From NCBI GenBank assembly GCA_022424905.1, contig JAKMGP010000285.1, positions 1 through 37,066 on the forward strand: 37,066 nt of DNA, read 5' to 3'. Below, one piece after another: positions 5,703 to 37,066 of the stretch. How positions within the stretch are numbered: position 1 is the first letter of the stretch; the number at the start of each line of letters is the position of its first letter. Both the position numbers and the translations under genes were made by a program. The notes under the pieces were generated by a model that saw only the letters and a program-made list of their open reading frames with translations, made no database searches and was not told the origin of the DNA. The DNA is from Akkermansiaceae bacterium (GTDB lineage: Bacteria > Verrucomicrobiota > Verrucomicrobiia > Verrucomicrobiales > Akkermansiaceae).

Positions 5703-7619
5703 ATGAAACGAGGCATACTTCTTTTTATCTTCCTGATCTCCATTGCGGTTGGATCGGAAAATTCGCCTTATTTTGAAATTGCAGGACATCATGAGATCGA
5801 TTGTTTCCCTCTTAAGTCATCGCATTCCGAAGTGACTATCACTGGTTCAATCGCAAAGATCACACTGACTCAAATTTACACAAACGAGGGAAACAAGACC
5901 ATCGATGCTACCTATCTTTTTCCCGCCTCTTCGGGCGCCGCAGTTCACGGCATGTTGATGAAAATAGGAAATCGAACCATTAGAGCGGAAATCCAAGAGA
6001 AAACAAAAGCGCGCCAAACCTTTGAAGAGGCTAAGAAACAAAAAAAGTCAGCCAGCCTTCTCACACAAAAACGCCCCAACCTGTTTTCCATGGAAATGGC
6101 TACTATTCTTCCGGGCGACCAACTCACTCTCACTCTCGAATACAGCGAGATTTTAAAGCCTAATTCTGGCGACTATGAGTTCGTCATCCCAACTGCGATC
6201 GGACCCCGCTATCGCGAAAGAGACACTCCCTCAGATAGCATCGAAAATCACTTCCTTAACGAAGGAAAACAAACGCCCACTCGTTTTTCCGTCAACGTAA
6301 ACCTCAGCAGTCCACTCCCCATTCAAAGATTGGCCTGCCCAAGCCACGAGCAATCCACTATCACCTTCACAAGTAAAACTATGGCTTCAGTCAATCTTAA
6401 CGAAGCTGAGCCTGATCGCGATTTCATGATCCGCTATCAATTATCTGGGCCAAGAATCCTAAGCGGTCTTCTTTCCCACAAAGGAAGCGAAGAAAACACC
6501 TTTCTTATCCAACTTGAGCCTCCTCGGGAGATTAAGCCCCAGGACATTCCAGAGCGCGACTTCATCTTCGTCATCGACGTGTCGGGTTCCATGAAAGGTT
6601 TCCCTCTCAATCTCGCCAAAGATCTTTTCAGAGAGCTCGCCGAAGAACTCCGCCCTGAAGACCGATTCAATATGCTTCTCTTTGCCGGAGCCAACAAAGT
6701 TCTCTCCGGCAAATCACTGCAAGCCACCAAAGCTAATATCGAGCGCGCCATCGACTTCCTCAATAGCTCTGATGGCACGGGAGGGACTCGCCTTTTAAAT
6801 GCTCTAGAAGAAGCTCTTGAACTTCCTCACAACCAAGACCATTCGCGCTCCTTGATTCTCATTTCCGACGGCTACATCAAAGCCGAAACTAAAGTCTTTG
6901 ACCTCATCAAGAATAAAGGGAGTGGAACCAATATTTTCCCACTCGGCGTTGGATCAAGTGTCAACCGACATCTCCTCGAAGGCCTCAGCCACTTCACCGG
7001 TCGTGACCACTTTATCGTGACGCACTCCTCCGAATCAGACACCGCCGTCACGCGTTTCAAAAACATCATATCCACTCCAGTTCTGACTAATATTCAAATC
7101 ACCTCGGAGACTGTCACCTTGAGCGATCTTCTCCCAGCTCGCCAACCCGACCTCTTTTACGGTCAAACTCTCTCACTCGTTGGAAAATGGCAGGGGTCAG
7201 GAACCATCTACATGACTGGAACCACCGGAAACGGAGAAAAACTCACGCAAAGCTTTGAGATTCAAAAATCATCTACCCATCCCTCTCTTCCGACCCTTTG
7301 GGCAAGGACAAAAGTTAAGGAGCTCTCTGACTTTGCTCAACTCACTGACCGTGGCACCGAGAAGAAGCAAGTCACCGAACTAGGGCTCAAACACCACCTC
7401 CTCACTCCCTTTACTTCCTTCGTCGCAGTCACGGAAGAGATTCGCGAAACCGAAGGCAAGAGCATCTTGGTCAAACAGGCCAAGCCTCTCCCTCTGGGAG
7501 TTTCAAATTCCGCTAAAGTCGAAGGAAGTGGGTCGTCCAACAATATTCCAGAACCATCATCAGGACTACTTATCTTATTGGTGGGGGCCCTAACCCTATC
7601 TCTTCGGATTCGCAGCTAA
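5703..7619 (+). CDS. Secreted VIT and VWA domain protein with a PEP-CTERM tail
   Basis: An exported protein of 638 residues. Residues 1-18 form a signal peptide. A VIT (inter-alpha-trypsin type) domain occupies about 25-150, including YTNEGNKTIDATYLFP. A von Willebrand A domain runs from about 285 to 455 with a complete metal-ion adhesion site: DVSGS (Asp292, Ser294, Ser296), a threonine in GTGGT near 358-362 and ISDG with Asp389. TPFTSFVAVTE at 568-578 is typical of VIT/VWA proteins. The C-terminus is IPEPSS (615-620), a hydrophobic helix and RIRS, which is the tripartite PEP-CTERM signal cleaved by exosortases. The likely role is surface adhesion or protein-protein contact. No exosortase gene is in the window. 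It follows fdhD by 72 bases with no evident functional link. Confidence 0.92.
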   Translation: MKRGILLFIFLISIAVGSENSPYFEIAGHHEIDCFPLKSSHSEVTITGSIAKITLTQIYTNEGNKTIDATYLFPASSGAAVHGMLMKIGNRTIRAEIQEKTKARQTFEEAKKQKKSASLLTQKRPNLFSMEMATILPGDQLTLTLEYSEILKPNSGDYEFVIPTAIGPRYRERDTPSDSIENHFLNEGKQTPTRFSVNVNLSSPLPIQRLACPSHEQSTITFTSKTMASVNLNEAEPDRDFMIRYQLSGPRILSGLLSHKGSEENTFLIQLEPPREIKPQDIPERDFIFVIDVSGSMKGFPLNLAKDLFRELAEELRPEDRFNMLLFAGANKVLSGKSLQATKANIERAIDFLNSSDGTGGTRLLNALEEALELPHNQDHSRSLILISDGYIKAETKVFDLIKNKGSGTNIFPLGVGSSVNRHLLEGLSHFTGRDHFIVTHSSESDTAVTRFKNIISTPVLTNIQITSETVTLSDLLPARQPDLFYGQTLSLVGKWQGSGTIYMTGTTGNGEKLTQSFEIQKSSTHPSLPTLWARTKVKELSDFAQLTDRGTEKKQVTELGLKHHLLTPFTSFVAVTEEIRETEGKSILVKQAKPLPLGVSNSAKVEGSGSSNNIPEPSSGLLILLVGALTLSLRIRS

Positions 7620-7862: not shown

Positions 7863-8660
7863 ATGAACGAACCGCCACCAATCCCTAAACAGGAACCCAT
7901 AATACCCCAAGTAGACACCTCTCTAGCCTCGGTATTTGAGGGCCTTCTCAAATCACCAAAAAATCTTATTGCTGGGATTAACGAAAGTAAGACATCAGGT
8001 TCCTTCACTTCAAAGCTCCTGATTCTCGCTCTTGTTGGCTTTGTCATTTTCGGGGTCACGATGGGAAGTTTTTCATTCCACGAACAACTCTGGGCAGCTC
8101 CGTTAAAAACACTCCTTGGCCTTACCTTCAGTTCTATTATTTGTCTGCCCAGCCTCTACGTCTTCTCCGCCTTGACCGGAACCTCGCTCGGGATCAAAGA
8201 GATCATTCAAGGAATGGCAGGAGCGCTAGCGCTCATCGCAGCTCTTCTCCTCGGCTTTACGCCTGTCCTTTGGGTCTTCTCGCAATCAACGACATCCGAG
8301 GTATTTTTTGGATTACTTGTTCTTACAACTTGGTTAATCGCTCTCTTTTTTGGCACTGGCTTTCTCCTCAAAATGCTTGAGCAATCCGGCACCGAAAACA
8401 GAGGACCATTACGGGTATGGATCGGAATCTTCCTCCTTGTAACACTTCAGATGTCGACCACTCTCCGCCCCCTGATCGGTCGATCAGAGTCGCTATTCAC
8501 GACTGAGAAGCGTTTCTTTCTGGAGCACTGGGCCACCACCATGAATGCACCTTCACGCAGTCCCCAACAAGACAATGACAAGCCGGCTAAAACCACCCAA
8601 AATAGTAGGGCCAATCAAAAAAGCGGGACTTCAAAAAAGAATCCTTTTCTCGGAGACTAG
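7863..8660 (+). CDS. Five-helix inner membrane protein of unknown function
   Basis: A 265-residue protein with a proline-rich cytoplasmic N-terminus (NEPPPIPKQEP) and five predicted membrane helices at about 51-69, 80-102, 115-139, 147-170 and 183-199. These are followed by a hydrophilic tail rich in Ser, Lys and Asn. The motif QMSTTLRPLIG just after the last helix resembles a Q...LRP-G signature that I associate, from memory, with Yip1-like membrane proteins of Planctomycetes and Verrucomicrobia; the family name is a guess. The stop overlaps the stop of the convergent Nudix gene by 4 bases. Its function is unknown. Confidence 0.8.
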   Translation: MNEPPPIPKQEPIIPQVDTSLASVFEGLLKSPKNLIAGINESKTSGSFTSKLLILALVGFVIFGVTMGSFSFHEQLWAAPLKTLLGLTFSSIICLPSLYVFSALTGTSLGIKEIIQGMAGALALIAALLLGFTPVLWVFSQSTTSEVFFGLLVLTTWLIALFFGTGFLLKMLEQSGTENRGPLRVWIGIFLLVTLQMSTTLRPLIGRSESLFTTEKRFFLEHWATTMNAPSRSPQQDNDKPAKTTQNSRANQKSGTSKKNPFLGD

Positions 8661-9190
8661 AGTTCAGAGTAGCCCCGCCAGCGTGAAGTTGAATCTTTAC
8701 CGAAGGCAACATCATGCGCGATGATCTTCTCCTCCGTGAAAAGAAACTTTCCATCAAAACTCTCCCCATTGAGCACCTGCCTTAGCCAGTAAGAATCGTC
8801 CTCCCACATTTTTTCGAAAGGAATCTCGTCAATCTGGCACCAATAAGGATTAGCCTCGATCGTTGCGGTCGGTGTCCCAGTAAATTTGGTCGCAGTGTAA
8901 ACGTGACAGTGGATATCAGGCAGGTCTGACATTGCGAACCATAGCTCACCACGCTTAGTTGGATCCGAACAAGTAATATGAAGCTCCTCTTGACACTCCC
9001 GAATCACGCATTGCTCGGGAGTCTCGCCGGGATCAATCTTTCCACCCGGTCCATTAATCTTACCTTGGCCTATTCCGGTTAGCTTCTCAATCAAGAGGAC
9101 CCGATTTCCTTGATGAACGAACATGAGGGTCGCATGGATGTCCGGCTTCCAAGTTGACCAGTCGGGAATTTCGATTTCATGATTGGGCAT
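8657..9190 (-). CDS. MTH1/MutT-like Nudix hydrolase
   Basis: A Nudix hydrolase of 177 residues. The Nudix box runs from Gly50 as G-x5-E-x7-RE-x2-EE: Glu56, Arg64, Glu65, Glu68 and Glu69 are all present, so catalysis should be intact. His71 replaces the usual glycine after the EE pair. The preceding KINGPGGKIDPGE resembles the MTH1 subgroup, which hydrolyses oxidised purine nucleoside triphosphates such as 8-oxo-dGTP. The substrate is inferred from that resemblance. It is 87 bases downstream of the GcvH-like gene on the same strand. Confidence 0.88.
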   Translation of the reverse strand: MPNHEIEIPDWSTWKPDIHATLMFVHQGNRVLLIEKLTGIGQGKINGPGGKIDPGETPEQCVIRECQEELHITCSDPTKRGELWFAMSDLPDIHCHVYTATKFTGTPTATIEANPYWCQIDEIPFEKMWEDDSYWLRQVLNGESFDGKFLFTEEKIIAHDVAFGKDSTSRWRGYSEL

Positions 9191-9277
9191 AAGCTACGCT
9201 TGGGAGGTTGCGATCTCTGTGAACATTGTCAATCCTCCCAAAAGCACGAGGACTTGTGACTGTCTGTTGTAGAAAAC

Positions 9278-9652
9278 TCAGGAAACCAAACCGCTGTAAG
9301 AAGCAGCATCCATGAGGTCGTTAACCTGATCGGGGTGATTTACACGAATTTTAAAGATCCAACCAGTGTCATAGGGGTCGACGTTTATCTTAGCAGGATC
9401 GACAACAAGGTCGGTATTAATCTCGATTATTTCACCGGCGATCGGTGCATAAATATCGCTATTTGCCCTACCACTTTCAACAACCCCAATCGGAGAGCCT
9501 TTATCGATATCGCCCAAATCCGGTAATTCAACGAAAACTACATCACCCAAATCTTCTTGGGCATGATCAGTAATCCCAATCGTAGCGATATCGCCTTGAA
9601 GTCTTACCCACATATGATCGCGGGAGTAATGAAGATCAGCTGGAGAAATCAT
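9278..9652 (-). CDS. Glycine cleavage H-like protein lacking the lipoyl lysine
   Basis: The 124 residues match the glycine cleavage H-protein along their whole length: HYSRDHMWV, IGITDHAQEDLGDVVFVELP, SDIYAPIAGEI and DPYDTGWIFKI. H-protein normally carries lipoate on the lysine of an ES-V-K-A motif and shuttles the aminomethyl group between the P, T and L proteins. Here that segment reads ESGRANSD: Arg62, codon AGG, stands where the lipoyl lysine should be, and glycine replaces the preceding valine. The protein could therefore not be lipoylated at the usual site. No gcvT or gcvP is nearby. The start was set at the ATG at 9650-9652 because 25 upstream residues in the open frame are unlike the family. 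It is either a divergent non-lipoylated paralogue or an H-protein with a disabling change. Confidence 0.88.
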   Translation of the reverse strand: MISPADLHYSRDHMWVRLQGDIATIGITDHAQEDLGDVVFVELPDLGDIDKGSPIGVVESGRANSDIYAPIAGEIIEINTDLVVDPAKINVDPYDTGWIFKIRVNHPDQVNDLMDAASYSGLVS

Positions 9653-9727
9653 AATGGAAGAAAGTATCGTAGAGTTTTTAATTATTCTCAGTAAAAGAGC
9701 CTTTGGATTACTCGCACGGAGATCCAA

Positions 9728-10103
9728 CCGGCCCGCGTTTTGACAAAGAATCCGTAGGGCTTCCTACCAATCCCAATTGGTTAAGTAAGCTAGACTAATC
9801 CTCCCGTCAAGTGTCGGAGGCATCTCCCCCTTTTTTGCGCAGTAGTAAGTGACATCCTCGACTAGGAACCATCCTGTGTAGGAGAGATCAAGCATCCAAC
9901 GGATACGCTAAATTATTGGCCGGCTCAGATAATCAATGAATCTGTTACTGAGATTCCCCTTCCTCAAAAAAAGAATACAGAGGCCAAAGCTCCCAGTGTT
10001 CTCGATCGAAGGGAAGCGGCCTCAAAAACCTATTTACACCGAAATATTTTGAGTCGTGATGGAGCTTGTCAACTTGGTGATCTGCGGGTTTCTTTAACCA
10101 CCG
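9728..10103. other. 376-base gap between the GcvH-like and rhomboid-like genes
   Basis: This stretch must hold the divergent promoters of the GcvH-like gene (minus) and the rhomboid-like/hisI pair (plus). Apart from the open HNH-like frame in its right half, I see no RNA gene, long repeat or convincing promoter pair. Confidence 0.4.
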
Positions 10104-10126
10104 ATGGGATTGAACGTAAATCTTGA
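9866..10126 (+). pseudogene. Possible remnant of an HNH nuclease gene
   Basis: After a TAG at 9863-9865 a frame stays open for 86 codons to a TGA at 10124-10126, with no usable ATG. Its end reads LHRNILSRDGACQ, which resembles the segment preceding the first HNH cysteine pair in bacterial HNH endonucleases (RN-I-x2-RD-x3-CQ). The expected CxxC pair and DH-V-P-R core do not follow. The frame overlaps the start of the next gene by 23 bases. I read this as a decayed or truncated HNH gene, or chance similarity. Confidence 0.3.
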
Positions 10127-10931
10127 AAAAAACTTCTCATGGCTGGCATTCCCTGGCCTCATTCGAGCTATCGTCATGCTTCAAAGCATGGTCTTTTTTG
10201 TCATCCTTATTAAGCCAGAGACGGCCAGCTACTTCATGGTCACACCTGAAGGCATCGCAAACGGTCAATATTGGCGATTAATTTCTTGGATCTTCTATCC
10301 CTTTGTCGATCCAAACAGCTATAGCCCTCTTTTTAGTGCCTTCTTTATGTTCATCATCTTGAGGATTTCCTTTCTCTTTAGTGATTCACTGGAGAATGCG
10401 TGGGGCGAATTTCAGGCCTCTCTCTATGTTTACACTACGATTATTTGCCAGACCTTGGCTCTCTACCTTTCGGCTACGGGATTTCTTCCACCTGCTGCCC
10501 TCACTAATCAGATGTTCTATATCGCGCTATTTTTTGCGTTTGCGACTCTTTTTCCCAATGTAGAATTCCTTCTTTTCTTTGTTCTTCCAGTAAAAGTCTG
10601 GATCTTTGCAATGATCTCACTAGCGACGATTCTTTTTTCATGCCTTAGCTTCCCGCCCCTCTTTCTGACCTACGGCCTCGCGTTTTCCCCCTACCTTGTC
10701 TGGGCGATCCCCCGCCTTTATCACTGGCGTAAATACAGGAACCAGGTAAATGCTCGGCGAGTTAAATTCCAGTCAAAGAGCAACGACAGCCAGGGTCAAA
10801 CACTTCATCGATGTGTTATTTGTAACGAGACCGAGCTGAGTAATCCCCAACTTGATTTCAGGGTCGCTGAAAATGGAGATGAGTATTGTCTGGACCATCT
10901 TGGAGATGATGGCAAACCTACAGCCTCATGA
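10104..10931 (+). CDS. Rhomboid-like membrane protein, apparently inactive, with a C-terminal zinc finger
   Basis: A 275-residue protein with about six membrane helices between residues 15 and 200. GQYWRLISW at 54-62 and LENAWG at 96-101 match the conserved L1-loop region of the rhomboid superfamily. The catalytic GxSG serine and the partner histidine are absent: the equivalent helix reads FYIALFFAFATLF. It is therefore more like a derlin or iRhom pseudoprotease than a protease. After a basic linker, the cytoplasmic tail carries a CVIC (237-240) and CLDH (262-265) cluster suited to bind one zinc ion. It overlaps hisI by 4 bases (ATGA), so the two are co-expressed; no functional link is evident. 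Confidence 0.75.
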   Translation: MGLNVNLEKNFSWLAFPGLIRAIVMLQSMVFFVILIKPETASYFMVTPEGIANGQYWRLISWIFYPFVDPNSYSPLFSAFFMFIILRISFLFSDSLENAWGEFQASLYVYTTIICQTLALYLSATGFLPPAALTNQMFYIALFFAFATLFPNVEFLLFFVLPVKVWIFAMISLATILFSCLSFPPLFLTYGLAFSPYLVWAIPRLYHWRKYRNQVNARRVKFQSKSNDSQGQTLHRCVICNETELSNPQLDFRVAENGDEYCLDHLGDDGKPTAS

Positions 10932-11380
10932 GCGAACTGCAGTTCTCCCCCCGTCCAAATAAGAAGGAACTCGACGAAACGAAAGCTTTCGCACCTAAGT
11001 TTGATGACAAGGGTCTTATCGCAGCGATGGCGATAGACCATGAAACACGCGAGCCCCTTATGTTGGCGTATATGAATGAGGAATCGCTTAAGATGACAAT
11101 CGAAAAGGGTGAAGCCGTTTACTACTCTCGCTCACGCCAAGAGATTTGGCATAAGGGAGCGACCTCTGGACACACCCAAAAACTTCATGAGATTCGCACT
11201 GATTGCGATCAGGATGCTCTCGTTCTTTACGTCACCCAACAAGGAGCCGGAGCCTGCCACACTGGCCGCCGGTCCTGCTTTTACCGAGCGGTCAGCTTCC
11301 CGCAGAACAACCCAGTCGACCTCGATTTCGTGGACGACGAAAAAACTTTTGATCCAGATTCTGTTTACGGCCAAAAGTAG
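10928..11380 (+). CDS. hisI: Phosphoribosyl-AMP cyclohydrolase
   Basis: Opens the purine ring of phosphoribosyl-AMP in histidine synthesis. The 150 residues contain YMNEESL, VYYSRSRQEIWHKGATSGH, the metal-binding TDCDQDAL (Asp92, Cys93, Asp94, Asp96) and GACHTGRRSCFYR with zinc cysteines at 110 and 117. There is no HisE domain at the C-terminus, so the pyrophosphohydrolase must be encoded elsewhere. Translationally coupled to the rhomboid-like gene through an ATGA overlap. It ends 45 bases before the convergent giant gene. Confidence 0.97.
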   Translation: MSELQFSPRPNKKELDETKAFAPKFDDKGLIAAMAIDHETREPLMLAYMNEESLKMTIEKGEAVYYSRSRQEIWHKGATSGHTQKLHEIRTDCDQDALVLYVTQQGAGACHTGRRSCFYRAVSFPQNNPVDLDFVDDEKTFDPDSVYGQK

Positions 11381-11425: not shown

Positions 11426-14400
11426 CTACTGCTGGGGAACCGAAGCCTCCAGGACTGTCGCTCCTTGCTCTTCGCTCATCACGAGGACACTGAACTTGCG
11501 AACCTCACCGATTCCGGTAGTGCTCACGCTAGCATAGTCAAACTTTCCTCGTAGATCGGTGTAACCATCTTTGAAGAACTTTACCCCTTGAGCGGTATCC
11601 GCGTAAACTTTCACGTAAACCTTAGGCAAAGGCTTGCCGGTCTTTTTATGATGTACGGTGAGCAAACCCATCGAATCGCTGAGAGTCGTCTTCAACTCAT
11701 TCGCATAGACTGCAGCGGAAGCTTTCTTACCACCCCCAATCACCTCAACGATAACATTACTTGCCTGATATTCAGCAGGAAGTTGGAATACCTTCGCTCC
11801 CCTCTTACCTTGTAGCTTCATCGATATTGCCTTGTTTGGCTGAATGATCGCAAAACGCGATGTTCCACTCGAAACAAATGGATTAGTGCTAAACAAAAAC
11901 TCCAAATCCATCTCGTAATAATTAATAGTCACTTCGGATACATTTTGGAAATCCAGAGTCGCTTGAACCCCCTCTACTCCAATACTCAAAGAAGGCTCGA
12001 GAGCCGCCGCCAATTGTTGTTCCTGCTCGCGATCTCCTTCTTTAATTACTTCCGGCTGCGCTCCCTGGACCTCGTTAATTTGAGCCGTTAAATCAGCAAA
12101 ACGATCGCGCCAAAGATCAACCGGATATTCCTTATATTTGGTAGCGACACGACGAGCCTTAGGAAGGTCAGCTTCGTAGAAAGCTCCATAAGCTTGAAAA
12201 TAATCATATTGCATTCTGGTTTTCAGATTCGCGGGTTTGACCCGTTTTAAATGAGCCAAAGCTTCGGCAATCCGATCCTGAAGAAAGAGATAATAAGTGG
12301 TGGCCAAATGATCGAGATCATCGAGATCTTTCTGCTGGCTGAGCATCCTAAGAAATTGCGAATACTGGCCACGAACGATGGGATTAAGGATTCGGTTTTC
12401 ACCTCCTAAAGTGTGAGCGCGATTGTTAATCAATGGCCTGTATTCAAGATGCTCGTAGCGACGCCGATTGACCGGATCAACCGTGATCAGATCACATGAA
12501 AGGGCGACCCCGCATTGATCAAGAAAACGCTCCTGCATCAAGAGTAGCTGAGCAACCCCCTCTTTGTGATTGTGCGCCACTGAATACCCCTGGATCACAG
12601 GATGATAGAAACCACGAACCTTTAAGATCTGTAGCACTTCCCCGAAGAACTTTTTACCTTCCCGGCAGCGCCATGCTATTTTTGTAAGATCAATCGCATG
12701 TAGGTTTTGTTTCTCTAGGTATTTGAGAACGTCAGCCTCTTCACCCCACTGACTCATCCAAGCCCACGATGTCTGATCGATACTCGTTGGCTTATCAACC
12801 ACCTTGAAAGTAAGTCCATCAGCATGAGCAATCACTGAACCAGACTTTGACAGATGAGCCGGATAGATCATGAATTCGCCAGAAGCAGGGAAATAGAAGG
12901 CAATCTCAAGGCGATGAGTTGAATATGGTTCAAGCTGAACCCGCTGGGTTGCGGTGGTTCTAAGCCCCCGAACTGGGATTGCACCTTTTGGAATCTGCGA
13001 AAGAATATCAAGCCGCTGACGCGCACTGGTTGGGTTGGTCACAACCACTTGCGCCCCATACACAACCCCTCGAACAAATTCCTGAGTGATAAATTTGTCG
13101 ATTTTTTGCCCATCTTCCATTCGGAAGCGATCATTGAGCTGAAAATAACTCTGACTCACCAGAAGAGGTGGACGATTATCGGCAATCCCAGCTTCCTTCA
13201 CCTCACGATGGAAAAACAACACGTTCCCACCAGCCGTGAACTCGAAAGCTCCCTCTTCAATCTGATCTTCATGCTTTGGTGCCTTGAATGGCAGGTCAAG
13301 GAATGACAATGCGAACATCATTTCCGTGAAGCTGCCTGAGACTTCTCCTAGATACTGCGAACCAAAGCCTGAGCCCATTCCATGCCTCGCAAGATCCAGC
13401 CAGAAACGGTTCTCAGTGACAAGTTCATAGGTCTGCTGACTTTGAGGTAGATGGTAATAGTTGTTTTCAGCCCATTCCTTGGTCTGCTCTAGAGCACGGT
13501 AGGCTTGCTGTACTTTTTTGAACCCCTGCTCCAAATCCGCGGCAAATGGATCAACCGCACTTCGCTTCCTTTGGGCGGAAAATCGGCTCTCTACCTCTTT
13601 AGAAGCATCCTTCTGTTTTTCAAGCTGCATCCCCGCTTCTTCGGCCAAACCATCACTAGCCTCGGCAAGACTTCTACCTAATGACCGATTCACTGAGTTA
13701 GCCGTGGCTCTTCCATCAATCATGCCCAGCTTCTCTCCTGCATAAGTATCACCAAAGGCACCCCCCCCCACACCAGCTCCAAACCAAAGCTTCGACGAGT
13801 CAAGATTTGGGGGACGCAAAGCCAATCTATTTTCGAGATCTAAACCGAGAGCTGCCAACCTCTCACGATCAGATTGCGCGAGTAAAATGCGCTCTACAAC
13901 ATTAAGTCGTGCATATTCAAACGGCTGATAATATTTAGGTAATGGATTCCCCAAAAGGTAATCATCCATAAAAGTGAGGTCTTTTTTGTTAGCAAGATGA
14001 GGAAGCACAACCTCTTTGAAAAAGACAGGATCTTTACGTGAGATGAAAAAGCTCAACTCATGGCAAGCGTATTTAGAATACTTTGACTGCTTCTCCTCGA
14101 CCGCCAAGCTATCCCACTCGGCAATAAAGGAAAACTCCCTCAACGTTGGATCATTTTTGAGAGTTAAAAAGTAACGATGAACCGATCCCAAATGATCATA
14201 AACTTCGAATGCTGAATTAAGGAGATCAGGGATCTTCAGCGTGCTTCCCTTCTTCAAGAGAGTAACCTCCTCCTGCTCAGTAAAGTGACGCTTGGGGTCC
14301 AACGCATTCGTCAGAAGACGCAAGTCACGAATCTTGGTCTTTGCGTCCGGTAAAGAGACGCTGCGATAAGTTGAACCCTCTGGATCAATCAAGAGAACGT

Positions 14401-17400
14401 GAACATGCTGACGATCACCAAAGGTATCAATCTTCATGCTGATACGACCATTTTTGTTCGGGACTAAATTTGGGATCACAACAGGATCTCTTCCTAAAAA
14501 CTCATAGGACGAAGAGCCAACCGCCCTAGCTTGAGCTTTTATATTTTGGCGCGCCAATTTGTTGCGTCCCGCTGGGGAAGCAGCCGGAACTGGCTTGCGA
14601 TTAAATTTATCGCCAGCTCTTAACAATTCCCCACCCGACTCAGTATCCCGAATAGCCCATGGATTCAGGAGGATCTCGGGACGACTCAGCATATTACCAG
14701 CAAACTTTTGAGCATCCCGTCGCTCCAAAATATAACGTAGTTCGTCACCTAAATTACGCCCACTAATGTAAAGGCTAGGAAGAAATCGTGCCATTCCAGT
14801 TCGAAGTCCTACCCTTTGAGAGCCACCGATGGCGGCAAAAGGATCATTCTCTGGAATAAATCTTGTCGCAATGACATGCACACGAGTCAACGGATCCAAA
14901 CCACTCACATCAATCTCTAAATTCTTATCATTGGCTTTAACAGATTTTATATGTGAGGCCTGTCTTGCCGGCAGCTCAAGCATGCGAGCTGAGTTAAACA
15001 GGTAACCCTCCGAAACCATACCCGATCCAACAAGCACTTTTATACTCTGGTTCGAGGGCTTCAGAATCAGGCGATAATCACCCGGCGAAAGAGTCGCGAC
15101 CAAATAACCATCGATAAATTTGAGCCGGGAGAATTCATCCGCAACAAACCCCCCGGACCGCAGGGAGTATAAAGCCACCTCACGTCGATTCAAAGAACCT
15201 ACGAACGGAACTTTAAGTTGCTGATTTTCGGAAAGTGTAAAGCTTCCAATTTGATCCCTCCGATCATTTCTAAGAATCCATGTTCTCGATTTCCCACTGG
15301 GCGCTTGCACCGTGAGGCTTGATATCCCAACTAGAGCACCAAGATCTAGGCTGCCTCTTTGGGTGGTCTTTAGAGTGGTTTTCCGCTGATTCTTAAAAGA
15401 TTCGTGATTGAATGTCACATTAAGATTCTGCCCGGCAATTGGTTCAGCATTCCGGCCAAAACTTTCGATGCGATATTTCCCATCAATCTTACTCAAGTAG
15501 AGGTCTCCGACAACGTCACTTTTGAGCACCTCGTTCACCTTAAAGGACCTAGAATCATTCAGTTCAACAATCTCACCACCTCTACTTGCGACCTTCATTT
15601 TCACCCGAAGGGTGATCACCAAATTTGCGAGACGATCTGGCACTCTAAATTCATGGACGAATTCGCGATCACCCATCAACTTGAGATCTTCAACGGTCAT
15701 CCTCGCAGGCAATCCTTCTAGATCGGTCGACTTCAATTCCAAAGCAGCACTTTCAATCTCACTGAGTGAAATCGTTTGACCCGCAACTTCCAAAGTTGGG
15801 CGGAGAATTAAACGCCCCTTACCACCGCTCCGAAGTGACTCTTGATCAAGGTGCATTCCTGCCGTTATCCGATATTCTTCCCGCGGCAGAGCCAGCTTAG
15901 CCATCGTGGCATATCCGTTAGAGTCCTGAATCACGACAGAACGAATTCCTGGACTATTGGAAAAAGGGATCACCAGACGACCACTTTTATTGCTTTCATA
16001 TCGGTTTCTCCCGATCCAAAGGGCCGCCCCTTTTAAGGGCTGATTAGCCTCATCAAGAATCGTAACCAACTCTCCCAGCGGAACTGTGCGATTGATTAAT
16101 CCAAGTGCCCCTTTCCGAATGATCGCCCTACTACTTTTGCCACCACCAATAAATTCAATGACCCACAAGCCTCTACGATTTGGGATTCCCGCAATCTTAA
16201 AATCCTTTTCCGTCTTTATCTGAGGCGCTGCATCAAATTCATGAAATTCGCGAAAATTCGCAACTAAACCATCAAGGTCAATATCAGTGCTGACCTCGTT
16301 TCCAAGACTGCGATAATAGTTTAAAGTATTAATCTCAAAAACTTTCACAATCAGCTTGGGCACGTTTTTAAGATGCACTTTTAAGATTACATCATCCTCA
16401 ATTGCGTAGCTTTCCTGATTCGTCGTATCAAATTTGATCTCCACCCGATCTTTCAGAGCTTGGAATTCCGATGGACTTAGTAAGGCAGCCCAATCTGATG
16501 GCTTGCCAATTCCGTTGGTAATCTTGCTTTCAGCAAAAACACGCCGAAGCCAACTTTCACGTAAATAAGGCGCAAACTTGGTCGTGTCCTGATCCTCTTT
16601 CAGGAACTTTAAAAGATAAGATTTCACCAAAGGCTCATCACCCCCTTGCGCAGAAGGAAGAGTTGTCACCTTACGGTAATCCCGCCCCAAATCGGCAGGA
16701 TGACGCCATAACACCGGTTCTTTTTCGCGCCACTTGGGATTCAAGTAACTGACATTTCGAGGCAGAGCTAGGTAATCCAAAAACCGCTTCTCATTCTCTT
16801 TCCCTTGCACCCGATCATGAATGAGGCGTTGATAAAGAATGTGGACTTTCAGTGAATTAAACGAAGATGGCAAGGTGGCGACGAATTTTTCAGCGCGAGT
16901 TAGATAAGCCTCACGAACAGCCGGCGATGCGGCCATAGATTCATCGGCATTAGGAAGAAGCCGAGTCATATAGGTTTCCACAAACGCAGCTGAATTGATC
17001 ACGTCAGCTTTTAATGCTAATAACTCTTCAAGCTGAGCTTTCGTCAGCAAACGATGAATTCGAAATTCACCAAAGCCCTTACTTTCTTTACTCTTAAGAT
17101 CAGTATGAATTAGCGAAATCAACCTGGGCAGATCCGGAGTCATGGAACGGGAAAGGAGGTCTCGCAGCTCAGAAGTCGACAACTTAGGATCCCCTTCTAA
17201 AAATCGGTAAAACCCCGAGGTTTGAAGATTTTGGAGCGAACTTGAACGCCCCAAGGCATCATCAAGAAACGCTTTCCAAGAGACGAATTTTGGATTCAGA
17301 GCCGAAGGGTGTTTTACTTCTCTCGATTTACCTTGCTGCTGATGATTAAGAGTCAACCCCATTTCGCGCCGCAGATAGGCCAAAGTTGCCTCGGGGTCAT

Positions 17401-17725
17401 CAGAATATCGAAACAAGGCTTCACGGTTCTCAATCTGCTTCCTTTTGCCAGAATTACGAAAACGGTTTTTCCACTCCCCCAGAATACGATTTAATTCCTT
17501 GAACTTCCTTTCATTTTGAAAATGGAGAGCGTGGTAGTAATAATAGTCTTCGGTTCCGGGAATTAAAAGCTGTAGTGCTTTCTCCCGATCTGAAGCCAAG
17601 GCAAAATCTTCAATGAATCCTACATCCTGCTGCGCTCTAAGGCTGGAGCTCTGACTCACAACGATGAGAGCACAAAGCGCAATAATCCAGCGCCGGCATA
17701 TCCATGGTAATTCAATTTTTTTCAT
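11426..17725 (-). CDS. Giant exported protein of 2099 residues, function unknown
   Basis: The N-terminus (WIIALCALIVVSQSSSLRAQQ) is a signal peptide with probable cleavage after RA near residue 31, so the protein acts outside the cytoplasm. The next few hundred residues are helical. From about 430 to 900 come several beta-rich segments (for example DDVILKVHLKNVPKLIVKV and GELVTILDEANQPLKGAALW) that recall the macroglobulin domains of bacterial alpha-2-macroglobulins, but I find no thioester motif (CGEQ). A glycine-rich stretch (GAGVGGGAFG) lies near 1320. A helical TPR-like part (YYLFLQDRIAEALAHLKRV) lies near 1810. A final beta-sandwich-like part with KPLPKVYVKVYA and FKDGYTDLRGKFDYASV runs from about 2020. 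From memory, similar long proteins occur in Planctomycetes and Verrucomicrobia. It is transcribed alone behind a palindrome-rich region. Confidence 0.85.
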   Translation of the reverse strand: MKKIELPWICRRWIIALCALIVVSQSSSLRAQQDVGFIEDFALASDREKALQLLIPGTEDYYYYHALHFQNERKFKELNRILGEWKNRFRNSGKRKQIENREALFRYSDDPEATLAYLRREMGLTLNHQQQGKSREVKHPSALNPKFVSWKAFLDDALGRSSSLQNLQTSGFYRFLEGDPKLSTSELRDLLSRSMTPDLPRLISLIHTDLKSKESKGFGEFRIHRLLTKAQLEELLALKADVINSAAFVETYMTRLLPNADESMAASPAVREAYLTRAEKFVATLPSSFNSLKVHILYQRLIHDRVQGKENEKRFLDYLALPRNVSYLNPKWREKEPVLWRHPADLGRDYRKVTTLPSAQGGDEPLVKSYLLKFLKEDQDTTKFAPYLRESWLRRVFAESKITNGIGKPSDWAALLSPSEFQALKDRVEIKFDTTNQESYAIEDDVILKVHLKNVPKLIVKVFEINTLNYYRSLGNEVSTDIDLDGLVANFREFHEFDAAPQIKTEKDFKIAGIPNRRGLWVIEFIGGGKSSRAIIRKGALGLINRTVPLGELVTILDEANQPLKGAALWIGRNRYESNKSGRLVIPFSNSPGIRSVVIQDSNGYATMAKLALPREEYRITAGMHLDQESLRSGGKGRLILRPTLEVAGQTISLSEIESAALELKSTDLEGLPARMTVEDLKLMGDREFVHEFRVPDRLANLVITLRVKMKVASRGGEIVELNDSRSFKVNEVLKSDVVGDLYLSKIDGKYRIESFGRNAEPIAGQNLNVTFNHESFKNQRKTTLKTTQRGSLDLGALVGISSLTVQAPSGKSRTWILRNDRRDQIGSFTLSENQQLKVPFVGSLNRREVALYSLRSGGFVADEFSRLKFIDGYLVATLSPGDYRLILKPSNQSIKVLVGSGMVSEGYLFNSARMLELPARQASHIKSVKANDKNLEIDVSGLDPLTRVHVIATRFIPENDPFAAIGGSQRVGLRTGMARFLPSLYISGRNLGDELRYILERRDAQKFAGNMLSRPEILLNPWAIRDTESGGELLRAGDKFNRKPVPAASPAGRNKLARQNIKAQARAVGSSSYEFLGRDPVVIPNLVPNKNGRISMKIDTFGDRQHVHVLLIDPEGSTYRSVSLPDAKTKIRDLRLLTNALDPKRHFTEQEEVTLLKKGSTLKIPDLLNSAFEVYDHLGSVHRYFLTLKNDPTLREFSFIAEWDSLAVEEKQSKYSKYACHELSFFISRKDPVFFKEVVLPHLANKKDLTFMDDYLLGNPLPKYYQPFEYARLNVVERILLAQSDRERLAALGLDLENRLALRPPNLDSSKLWFGAGVGGGAFGDTYAGEKLGMIDGRATANSVNRSLGRSLAEASDGLAEEAGMQLEKQKDASKEVESRFSAQRKRSAVDPFAADLEQGFKKVQQAYRALEQTKEWAENNYYHLPQSQQTYELVTENRFWLDLARHGMGSGFGSQYLGEVSGSFTEMMFALSFLDLPFKAPKHEDQIEEGAFEFTAGGNVLFFHREVKEAGIADNRPPLLVSQSYFQLNDRFRMEDGQKIDKFITQEFVRGVVYGAQVVVTNPTSARQRLDILSQIPKGAIPVRGLRTTATQRVQLEPYSTHRLEIAFYFPASGEFMIYPAHLSKSGSVIAHADGLTFKVVDKPTSIDQTSWAWMSQWGEEADVLKYLEKQNLHAIDLTKIAWRCREGKKFFGEVLQILKVRGFYHPVIQGYSVAHNHKEGVAQLLLMQERFLDQCGVALSCDLITVDPVNRRRYEHLEYRPLINNRAHTLGGENRILNPIVRGQYSQFLRMLSQQKDLDDLDHLATTYYLFLQDRIAEALAHLKRVKPANLKTRMQYDYFQAYGAFYEADLPKARRVATKYKEYPVDLWRDRFADLTAQINEVQGAQPEVIKEGDREQEQQLAAALEPSLSIGVEGVQATLDFQNVSEVTINYYEMDLEFLFSTNPFVSSGTSRFAIIQPNKAISMKLQGKRGAKVFQLPAEYQASNVIVEVIGGGKKASAAVYANELKTTLSDSMGLLTVHHKKTGKPLPKVYVKVYADTAQGVKFFKDGYTDLRGKFDYASVSTTGIGEVRKFSVLVMSEEQGATVLEASVPQQ

Positions 17726-33414: not shown

Positions 33415-33713
33415 CGTGTCGGATGAGTAGCTGACTCCCTGCCCCCAAGCAAGCACTACGGAGTTTGGAGTTGGGTCCGTTACCCCTCAACTCTGGAATC
33501 TTTGATCAAACGTCGCCAAATCACCCTTCTCATTTCCTCAGCTTCAAAAAAGATGTCTCAAGACCCCAAAAAGCGCCTTATTCATCTCCTGCCTCACTTC
33601 TCCAGGTGAGAGCCTTCAGCCAGACCGGCTATATTCTCAAAAAATCAATTTTCGCAAATTCCGTAGTTGGCTCCCCCGCCTCCAGACTTCTAAGCTGTTC
33701 CACACAACTCAAC
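33415..33713. other. Divergent promoter region of valS and pyruvate carboxylase, with a hairpin
   Basis: No gene is seen in these 299 bases. An imperfect hairpin at 33468-33493 (GAGTTG paired with CAACTC, extended by GGG/CCC with a bulge) lies 54-79 bases upstream of the valS start and could be part of its leader. There is no T tract and no T-box signature. TATATT at 33630-33635 is a possible -10 element for pyruvate carboxylase, without a good -35. Confidence 0.35.
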
Positions 33714-36700
33714 ATGGCTATCCAACAAAAACTCCTTGTCGCCAACCGTGGCGAAATCGCCATTCGCGTCTTTCGCGCTGCCACTGAACTCGGGCTCCGC
33801 ACCGTCGCAATATACGCCGAGGAAGATCGCTTTTCCCGCCATCGCTTTAAAGCTGACGAGGCTTACCAGCTAGACGCAACTAAAGGTCCTGTCGGCGCCT
33901 ATCTCGACCACGAAGGTATCGTAGCCCTCGCAAAATCAAAAGGCGTCACTCTCATTCATCCCGGATATGGATTCCTGTCCGAAAATGCCGACTTCGCCCG
34001 CGCCTGCGAACGCGAAGGTATTACTTTCATCGGTCCATCCGCCGACCTTCTAGGCTCAATGGGCGACAAAACCGCTGCTCGCGCACAAGCAATCGCGGCC
34101 AAAGTTCCAGTTCTTCCGGGCACCGACGACGCCATTTCCGATCCCGATCAAGCCCTTACCGTAGCCCATGAGGTCGGCTTCCCTCTCATCATCAAGGCCG
34201 CATTTGGCGGTGGTGGTCGTGGTATGCGGATCGTTGAAAAACCCTCCGAACTTCAGGCCCGCCTCGCCGAAGCCCAAGAGGAAGCCCAAAACGCCTTCGG
34301 AAACCCTGCCGTTTTTCTGGAACGCTACATTAAACGAGCGAAACACATCGAAGTTCAAATCCTCGGAGACCAACACGGTAATGTTGTCCACCTCCACGAA
34401 CGCGATTGCTCTGTGCAACGGCGCTACCAAAAAGTGGTTGAGATTGCACCCTCCATCGACCTCGAGGGTACCCTTCGCCAAGATCTTTGCCAATCAGCTG
34501 CCAACCTTGCCCAATCTATCGGTTACAACAACGCCGGCACTGTCGAATTCCTTTACGACATGGACTCAAAAGAATGGTTCTTCATCGAAATGAATCCGCG
34601 CATTCAAGTCGAACACACCGTCACCGAATGCGTTACCGGCATCGATCTTGTCCGTTCTCAAATACTCGTGGCACAAGGCAAGAAACTTCACGAACCCGAA
34701 ATTGGAATCCCCACCCAGAGCGAAATCCCTTGCAACGGCTTCGCCATCCAATGTCGAATCACGACTGAAGACCCTGAAAAGGGGTTTGCCCCCGACTACG
34801 GCCGCATCACTAACTATCGTTCCGCTGCCGGATTTGGCATACGACTTGACTCCGGAAACGGAGACGCCGGAGCTGTCATTACTCCATACTACGACTCGAT
34901 GCTCGTTAAACTCACCGCCACCGGTCGTGACTTCGAAACCGCCTGCCAACGAATGGACCGCGCCCTCCGTGAATTCCGTATTCGAGGCGTCAAAACCAAC
35001 ATTCCTTTCCTCGAAAACGTCATTGAAGATTCCACTTTCCGATCTGGTGACGCGCACACTAAACTCATCGACTCCCAGCCGAGTCTCTTCAGCTTTATAC
35101 CGAAACGCGACCGAGCAACCAAGCTCCTCAACTACCTCTCCGACCTGACCGTAAATGGCAATCCAGGAGCTAAAGACTGGCGCCCCGCTAAACCCTTCGC
35201 ACAACCCCGTATTCCAAGTAGCACGGGTGTCTCGGTTGCATCCCCCTCCTCCAGAGAAATCCTCCTTAGTCAAGGTCCCGAAGCCTTTTCAAAATGGATT
35301 GGTGAACAAAAACGTCTACTCTGCACTGACACCACAATGCGCGACGCCCACCAGTCGCTTATCGCCACTCGCATGCGCACTTTCGACATGCTTAATATCG
35401 CAGAAGCTTACGCGAAGAGAACTCCTGATCTTTTCTCGATGGAAATGTGGGGAGGCGCCACCTTCGACACCTCGATGCGCTTTCTTAAGGAAGACCCATG
35501 GGACCGTCTTCGCGAGCTCCGCGAACGCATCCCAAACATTTGCTTCCAGATGCTCTTCCGTGGATCGAACGCTGTTGGCTACTCAAACTATCCTGACAAT
35601 GTTGTCGCCGGATTCGTTAAACACGCAGCCGATTCCGGAATGGACATATTTCGTATTTTCGACTCCCTCAACTATTTGCCGAACATGAGGGTTGCCATGG
35701 AAGCCGTTCGCGAACATGGCAAATCTGTCTGTGAAGCTGCTGTCTGCTACACCGGTGACATCACCGACCCAAACCGAGCCAAATATTCACTCAAGTATTA
35801 CATCGATAAGGCCAAAGAGTTGGAAAAGATGGGCGCACATATTCTTTGTATTAAAGACATGGCTGGCCTCTGTCATCCTGCCGCCATCACAAAGCTTGTT
35901 TCCACGCTCAAACAAGAAATTGGCATCCCCATTCACTTCCACACTCACGACACATCCGGGCTCAACGCTGCCTCGATTATGGCTGCCGCTGAGGCTGGAG
36001 TCGACATCGCAGATATGGCTCTTGCCTCTATGTCTGGATCAACAAGCCAACCAAATCTCAACTCTGTCTGCGCCGCGATGGGTGGCCACGAGCGAGACCC
36101 CGGTCTCGACATCGAAACTCTCAATGAGTTTTCCGATTACTGGGAAGAAATCCTGACACACTACGAACCTTTCTATTCCGCTCCCCGAAGCGGCACTGCT
36201 GAGGTTTACCTACACGAAATGCCCGGCGGGCAATACACCAACCTCAAGGAACAAGCCAACGGCATGGGACTCGGCCACCGTTGGCAGGAAATCGCCCATA
36301 CCTACGCTGACGTAAACCAACTCTTTGGCGATATCGTCAAGGTCACTCCCTCTTCCAAGGTAGTTGGAGACATGACCATGCTCCTCGTTACGCAGGATCT
36401 AAAAGCCAAAGACCTTCTTAACGGCAACGCGCCCAACCTCGACTTCCCCGAAAGTGTCATCGATATGCTGGGAGGTGGCCTCGGTCAACCCGACGGTGGA
36501 TGGCCCAAGGAAATTCAAAAACTCGTTCTAGGAGATAAGATTCCGGTTACAGTCCGCCCCGGTGAACTCGCGCCTCCATGCGACCTAGACCAAACCAAGG
36601 CTGAACTCAGCGAGGCACTCGATCGAGAAGCAAACAACGACGACCTCTACAGCCATCTCATGTATCCTCAGGTCTTCTCAGATTATTTGGATTCGCTGAA

Positions 36701-37066
36701 GAACTTCGACCGCCTCACGGTCCTACCCACTCCGGCTTTCTTTTATGGCCTTCAAATTGGGGAAGAAGTCCATGTTGATATTGGCCCAGGAAAGACCCTC
36801 TTCATCAAGCTCATCTCAATTGGCGAACCTGACGACGAAGGTCGGCGTACTCTTTTCTATGAACTGAATGGTATGCCTCGTGAGTGCGTCGTAATCGACA
36901 AAGCTCTTGGCAAAGAGTCCGTAGCCAACCTCAAAGGAGAGCCCGGCAACGATCAACATATTATCGCACCCCTCCCCGGAATGATCAGCGAAGTTGCGAT
37001 AAAATCAGGCGACGAGGTCAAGGAAGGTGAAAAATTAGTCGTTCTAGAGGCCATGAAAATGCTCAC
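33714..37066 (+). CDS. pyc: Pyruvate carboxylase, 3' end cut by the window edge
   Basis: Carboxylates pyruvate to oxaloacetate using bicarbonate, ATP and biotin, an anaplerotic step. The first 1117 codons are visible. The biotin carboxylase domain (about 1-450) shows LLVANRGEIAIRVFRA, HPGYGFLSEN, the FGGGGRGMR ATP loop and FIEMNPRIQVEHTVTE. The carboxyltransferase domain starts near 530 with TTMRDAHQSLIATRMRT and contains KDMAGLCHP and HFHTHDTSG. A biotin carrier domain ends the protein, with the biotinyl Lys1115 in LEAMKM. Having all three domains in this order on one chain identifies pyruvate carboxylase rather than oxaloacetate decarboxylase. Only about 25-35 residues are missing. The start ATG gives the usual N-terminus. 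Confidence 0.98.
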   Translation, partial: MAIQQKLLVANRGEIAIRVFRAATELGLRTVAIYAEEDRFSRHRFKADEAYQLDATKGPVGAYLDHEGIVALAKSKGVTLIHPGYGFLSENADFARACEREGITFIGPSADLLGSMGDKTAARAQAIAAKVPVLPGTDDAISDPDQALTVAHEVGFPLIIKAAFGGGGRGMRIVEKPSELQARLAEAQEEAQNAFGNPAVFLERYIKRAKHIEVQILGDQHGNVVHLHERDCSVQRRYQKVVEIAPSIDLEGTLRQDLCQSAANLAQSIGYNNAGTVEFLYDMDSKEWFFIEMNPRIQVEHTVTECVTGIDLVRSQILVAQGKKLHEPEIGIPTQSEIPCNGFAIQCRITTEDPEKGFAPDYGRITNYRSAAGFGIRLDSGNGDAGAVITPYYDSMLVKLTATGRDFETACQRMDRALREFRIRGVKTNIPFLENVIEDSTFRSGDAHTKLIDSQPSLFSFIPKRDRATKLLNYLSDLTVNGNPGAKDWRPAKPFAQPRIPSSTGVSVASPSSREILLSQGPEAFSKWIGEQKRLLCTDTTMRDAHQSLIATRMRTFDMLNIAEAYAKRTPDLFSMEMWGGATFDTSMRFLKEDPWDRLRELRERIPNICFQMLFRGSNAVGYSNYPDNVVAGFVKHAADSGMDIFRIFDSLNYLPNMRVAMEAVREHGKSVCEAAVCYTGDITDPNRAKYSLKYYIDKAKELEKMGAHILCIKDMAGLCHPAAITKLVSTLKQEIGIPIHFHTHDTSGLNAASIMAAAEAGVDIADMALASMSGSTSQPNLNSVCAAMGGHERDPGLDIETLNEFSDYWEEILTHYEPFYSAPRSGTAEVYLHEMPGGQYTNLKEQANGMGLGHRWQEIAHTYADVNQLFGDIVKVTPSSKVVGDMTMLLVTQDLKAKDLLNGNAPNLDFPESVIDMLGGGLGQPDGGWPKEIQKLVLGDKIPVTVRPGELAPPCDLDQTKAELSEALDREANNDDLYSHLMYPQVFSDYLDSLKNFDRLTVLPTPAFFYGLQIGEEVHVDIGPGKTLFIKLISIGEPDDEGRRTLFYELNGMPRECVVIDKALGKESVANLKGEPGNDQHIIAPLPGMISEVAIKSGDEVKEGEKLVVLEAMKML

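Follow-up and report, generated by a model that had tools for sequence, protein, structure and literature searches.

The gcvH gene and its ancestral operon

The window, a stretch of 37,066 nucleotides from an Akkermansiaceae bacterium (genome G000), encodes a complete GcvH protein of 124 residues (P0001) at 9278..9652. The sequence-only reading had given these positions correctly in plus-strand numbering, while the gene itself lies on the minus strand; the plus-strand reading holds a stop. P0001 scored 129.9 bits against PF01597 (cut-off 22.2) and 136.9 bits against TIGR00527 (cut-off 115.85). Its AlphaFold2 model (pLDDT 96.6) showed the H-protein fold, and the best structural matches among solved structures were H-proteins, including those of E. 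coli and pea, with TM scores of about 0.92-0.96. Together with the synteny described below, these results place P0001 in the GcvH family by descent.

Codon 62 (9467..9469, minus strand), which aligns with the lipoyl lysine Lys-64 of the E. coli protein, is AGG and encodes arginine. The replacement noticed in the sequence-only reading was thereby confirmed, as was the change of the preceding residue, which is glycine in P0001 and valine in relatives bearing a glycine cleavage system (GCS). The motif around residue 62 reads ESGRANSDIYAP and belongs to the lipoyl hairpin (codons 61-67; 9452..9472, minus strand), which is relaxed where the GCS was lost. Codon 14 (9611..9613, minus strand), aligned with E. 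coli Glu-14, encodes methionine here and glutamate in GCS-bearing relatives. Lipoate cannot be attached to arginine, and the earlier conclusion that Arg62 excludes the classical lipoyl carrier role holds. The only lysines left in P0001 are residues 51, 88 and 101; use of an alternative lipoyl lysine was ruled out, as no new lysine occurs in the clade of five Arg62 species described below. With neither the lipoyl-accepting hairpin lysine nor GcvP and GcvT in its genome, P0001 does not qualify as a functional GCS H-protein.

The genes on both sides of gcvH mark its ancestral position. A Nudix hydrolase gene (8657..9190, minus strand) is the syntenic 3′ neighbour of gcvP in the ancestral order, and a gene for a putative membrane protein without Pfam match (10104..10931, plus strand) is the syntenic 5′ neighbour of gcvT, followed by the syntenic marker hisI (phosphoribosyl-AMP cyclohydrolase; 10928..11380, plus strand). 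In the Lys62-bearing sister species G021 the genes run hisI, membrane protein, gcvT, gcvH, gcvP and Nudix; gcvT-gcvH-gcvP also stand side by side in Lys62 congeners. When the G021 proteins served as queries in translated searches, the last 25 of the 926 codons of gcvP were recovered in the window (9180..9239, minus strand; 60% identity), continuous with the beginning of the Nudix gene. This match is weak on its own (E=0.019) and lies at the same place as a longer remnant in the congener G014 (E=6e-11). The former gcvT position corresponds to 9653..10103 (minus strand); gcvT was undetectable there or elsewhere in the window's genome. G014 retains residues 1-64 of gcvT and, of gcvP, the final 43. 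In G003, stops interrupt gcvT, and a large internal deletion has left of gcvP only 52 residues at the start and 42 at the end. What remains in G008 is residues 1-84 and 302-360 of gcvT together with the final 34 residues of gcvP. In all four genomes (G000, G014, G003 and G008) gcvH is intact between the remnants. Hence, of the ancestral gcvT-gcvH-gcvP operon, gcvH has stayed intact while gcvT and gcvP on either side of it were eroded.

A search of the whole 4.05-Mb genome identified the window gene as the sole gcvH; neither a second, lysine-bearing copy nor gcvT or gcvP was found. The suggestion of a paralogue, made from the sequence alone, therefore failed: no second gcvH exists in the genome, gcvP and gcvT are absent from it, and the gene occupies the ancestral operon position. 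The window gcvH is an orthologue, the gene that remained of the original operon. No Rfam match, such as a glycine riboswitch, was obtained for 8500-11000, which speaks against a known structured RNA as the reason for retention of the locus.

Several other features were recorded. In G017 (contig C207; L059 10375-13787) about 3.4 kb, including a second hisI-like frame, separate gcvH from the Nudix gene, an arrangement differing from the other Arg62 sister species. Elsewhere in the window, 5703-7619 (plus strand) encodes a VIT/VWA-domain protein with a PEP-CTERM-like C-terminal tail (PEPSSGLLILLVGALTL) that adjoins fdhD. A 2099-residue protein without Pfam match (11426-17725, minus strand) shows synteny and conservation within the genus, occurring also in G025, G015, G017, G021 and G003. 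A pyruvate carboxylase-like open frame (33465-37064, plus strand) ends at the contig end inside the biotinyl motif (EAMKM), and the short ORFs on both strands of this region are overlapping frames.

Loss of the glycine cleavage system and of lysine 62 in the genus

Close relatives are Akkermansiaceae/Verrucomicrobiales MAGs; all genomes compared are metagenome-assembled and their taxon number is modest. Arg62 and Gly61 are common to five congeneric species (G000, G025, G014, G015 and G017), referred to as the Arg clade. The GcvH proteins of the other four are 92-97% identical to the window protein and each has AGG at codon 62, so that Arg62 proved to be conserved among close relatives. Arg62 (AGG) was independently gained in G003, where the motif is otherwise normal (ESVRAASD). 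G013 has Ile62 in a rewritten hairpin (VIMNREF), and G008 has kept Lys62 with changed neighbours (VKGRSD). The remaining congeners examined show ESVKAASD. The idea of a lone exception, with lysine in all relatives, thus does not apply to a residue present in five species and in G003.

In a tree calculated from lipA and one E2 gene, the five Arg species were monophyletic with a support of 100 and sister to the pair of G021 (lysine, intact GCS) and G003 (arginine). G013 grouped with G019 and G010, and G008 with G006. The placement of the Arg clade, G003 and G013 indicates three or more losses of Lys62, and the same tree requires at least four losses of the GCS. Row G035 of the first trees, which was out of register in the gcvH alignment, did not enter the codon models. 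A pattern search for the Arg motif across the phylum hit one of 387 genomes, the window's own. The matching Lys pattern was found in 49 of 145 genomes, which puts the sensitivity at about one third, so phylum-wide rarity of the Arg motif is likely, short of proven.

No gcvP match (PF02347) was obtained in the five Arg-clade genomes, G013 or G008, and a single 45-residue piece in G003. An intact gcvT above the TIGR00528 cut-off was absent from the Arg clade, G003, G013 and G008; the sole gcvT-family match in the Arg clade is a weak one to an 848-aa multidomain frame in G014. With nothing over the cut-off and only remnants present, hidden gcvT or gcvP genes in the Arg-clade genomes were ruled out. 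G008 has thus lost gcvT and gcvP and retained Lys62. In G007, gcvH, gcvT and gcvP are all missing; this genome was not counted as a GCS loss because the flanking membrane-protein gene was not found there either.

The Arg-clade MAGs are incomplete (completeness 81-97%, also given as 81-93%), which might suggest that a working GCS was missed by the assemblies or that Arg62 is an assembly error. Such an artefact is close to inconceivable. Both gcvT and gcvP are missing in five of five Arg-clade genomes, their remnants lie in a contiguous syntenic locus, a further gene was lost or broken along with them (see below), and arginine is unable to carry lipoate in any case. The recurrence of AGG in separate public assemblies further rules out a read error.

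A transferase-like gene was lost or broken in parallel. Its product, about 220 residues long and with an LplA/LipB catalytic domain (PF21948), is intact in nearly all GCS-bearing congeners (e.g. G021:C48:1000-1653; P0002, L129). The gene contains stops in G003 (G003:C88:1873-2454) and G008 (G008:C95:471-1097), and a short remnant is left in G014. The protein was not found in G000, G025, G015, G017 and G013, nor in the less complete G012, G024 and G023. In contrast, lipA, lipB and the E2 genes are retained in all Arg-clade genomes, which rules out a wholesale loss of the lipoylation machinery. Because the PF21948 gene disappeared in step with gcvT and gcvP while lipA, lipB and the E2s were kept, its product is a candidate GcvH-dedicated lipoyl/octanoyl transferase or ligase of the Akkermansiaceae. 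The role proposed for it would be comparable to that of LipM, which is said to act on GcvH alone (PMC10332631).

Selection on gcvH with and without the glycine cleavage system

Pairwise dN/dS of gcvH within the Arg clade ranged from 0.046 to 0.057 at dS values of 0.26-0.84. Within this clade the flanking Nudix, membrane-protein and fdhD genes, as functional neighbours, gave higher values of 0.068-0.19. In a home-made maximum likelihood codon model with one omega per branch class and partition, gcvH omega was 0.0725 in the Arg-clade crown and 0.046 in the background, and fixing the crown value at 1 resulted in 2dlnL=148. An omega of 1 was also rejected for G008 (2dlnL 17.7) and for G013 (2dlnL 52), although the G013 branch is saturated in dS. 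For G003 alone neutrality was unrejected (p=0.055), as expected from a very recent loss. These data demonstrate strong purifying selection on gcvH in the Arg clade. They agree with the view, taken from the sequence alone, that Arg62 is no sign of decay, as the residue is conserved across the clade in a gene under purifying selection.

In the E. coli H-protein, Glu-12, Glu-14, Leu-35, Ala-66, Ser-67, Asp-68/69 and Tyr-70 hold the aminomethyl-lipoate arm, and Glu-14 binds this arm in simulations (PMC7733448). The alignment assigns these residues to positions 12, 14, 35, 64, 65, 66 and 68 of the proteins studied here, and the lysine to position 62. An arm set comprising positions 12, 14, 35 and 61-68 was fixed partly from this literature (PMC7733448) and partly from the hairpin. 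Its omega rose from 0.015 in GCS-bearing to 0.18 in GCS-lacking branches (p=4e-8; partition test). In contrast, omega of the other 113 codons was unchanged (0.049 vs 0.043; p=0.52; partition test). Of the sites without variation in 15 GCS-bearing congeners, 8 of 10 in the arm set were changed in GCS-lacking copies, compared with 10 of 58 elsewhere (p=2e-4). Counted as independent events, 16 changes fell on the 10 arm sites and 10 on the 58 others (p=6e-8). Glu14 was replaced three times, by Met, Gly and Val. Private changes at arm sites are absent from all 15 GCS-bearing species. Relaxation after GCS loss is confined to the arm-holding residues, and the remainder of the protein is as constrained as in GCS-bearing relatives.

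The plain decay of gcvT and gcvP and the relaxed active-arm residues would also be expected if gcvH were a lingering relic, the last undeleted gene of the operon and drifting, and the loss in G003 is too recent for judgement. However, an omega of about 0.05-0.07 was maintained over dS values of up to 0.84 in five species, with 1 strongly rejected. Moreover, none of the eight gcvH copies from GCS-lacking genomes carries a stop or frameshift, and the non-arm sites are constrained as in GCS-bearing relatives. For the Arg clade a relic is strongly disfavoured, and we regard this explanation as highly improbable.

Possible functions of an H-protein without lipoate

Selection on the arm ended with the death of the pathway while the other sites stayed constrained, which argues for a function that makes no use of the arm. 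We consider it highly probable that GcvH has such a lysine- and GCS-independent function. The explanation as a whole, only slightly less firmly held, is that the H-protein orthologue of a dead GCS was retained for a second function without need of lysine, lipoate, P-protein or T-protein. As the comparisons show, gcvT and gcvP eroded while gcvH between them stayed whole. The parts serving the aminomethyl-lipoate arm (the lysine, the hairpin and Glu14) then relaxed repeatedly, and purifying selection on the rest of the protein was unchanged. gcvH would have been kept because this function dispenses with the lipoyl lysine and with both partner proteins.

At least three independent lysine losses with the gene kept could also reflect neofunctionalisation, in which each lineage gained a new role separately after GCS loss. 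This course of events seems improbable, as the same outcome several times over is less likely than a pre-existing function and the constraint on non-arm sites did not shift after the loss (p=0.52). From this unshifted constraint, and because gcvH was retained in four or more lineages without a GCS, we infer that the second function predates GCS loss.

The second job probably consists of a contact with another protein, mediated by the unmodified beta-barrel together with its invariant surfaces (TDHAQ..L, DVVFVELP and DP..N..PY..GWI). A regulatory or scaffold role, as proposed in the sequence-only reading, is possible. GcvH would then act as an assembly or regulatory partner, and no carrier, of the lipoyl/2-oxoacid-dehydrogenase machinery. 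LipA, LipB, E2 and E3 are the first place to look for partners, since the PDB contains structures of H-protein bound to human LIAS and to E. coli LplA, and the genes stayed. On the strength of this retention of LipA, LipB and E2 and the known contacts, they might tentatively be named as the most likely partners. The same retained genes and complexes would fit a lipoylation decoy or brake, an unmodifiable GcvH that docks on LipB or LipA and tunes E2 lipoylation. This variant is unlikely, since the hairpin, the part of the substrate seen by LipA and LipB, is the very part that relaxes, and in G013 it is wholly rewritten.

The usual view of H-protein is that of a passive carrier of lipoate; the second job known for it, lipoyl relay, depends on the lysine as well. 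Comparison with canonical GcvH (PF01597, TIGR00527) revealed the same fold, hallmark motifs and, in relatives, operon position; P0001 differs in lacking the lipoyl lysine and Glu14, in its altered hairpin and in a genome devoid of P- and T-protein. The chlamydial GcvH-like protein described by TIGR03077 ('not_gcvH'), P- and T-less, is likewise a GcvH homologue without GCS partners. However, P0001 reached 65.4 bits against this model, below the cut-off of 144.05, and is a recent orthologue rather than a deep split. Lipoyl relay by H-proteins is known from B. subtilis GcvH with LipM/LipL, yeast Gcv3 and human GCSH (PMC7868403, PMC7831266, PMC9990993, PMC10332631). These proteins likewise have a second job separable from glycine cleavage, but the relay needs a lysine that accepts and passes on octanoyl or lipoyl groups. 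P0001 has no such lysine, and LipB is present in its genome, where the searches for lipoylation enzymes covered LipA, LipB and LplA/LipB-fold proteins.

Other GcvH-fold proteins act outside the GCS. LbpA of sulfur oxidation (PMC6067878), which is also marked by an hdr-like gene neighbourhood, depends on the lysine for its role and has kept it, mostly with two cysteines, whereas P0001 has neither Lys62 nor any cysteine. GcvH-L of SirTM/macrodomain operons (PMC4518038) matched P0001 in Foldseek with a TM of 0.81 (5a35) at 21% identity; a Pfam scan of the genes flanking P0001 recognised neither a macrodomain nor a sirtuin gene, and P0001 does not have the lysine. Mycoplasma GcvH acts inside the host cell in a role outside the GCS (PMC11156438), a host-directed pathogen effect to which nothing comparable is indicated for P0001. 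No report of a GcvH kept without lysine, P-protein and T-protein was found in the open-access literature.

Repeated loss of the GCS in one genus splits, residue by residue, the constraint imposed by the carrier function (the arm cavity) from the constraint on the rest of the protein, so that a role of GcvH independent of lipoate can be tested directly. In addition, it has named a candidate GcvH-dedicated lipoyl/octanoyl transferase, the PF21948 protein. It is conceivable, though doubtful, that an old general lipoate-independent function, rather than glycine cleavage, is behind much of the extreme conservation of H-proteins outside the lipoyl hairpin. Such a function would be seen bare here, because P-protein, T-protein, the candidate lipoyl transferase and the lysine are all gone. 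In mice, H-protein loss is embryo-lethal for a cause other than the lost glycine cleavage activity (PMC7868403), and a lipoate-independent role of GcvH may bear on this lethality.
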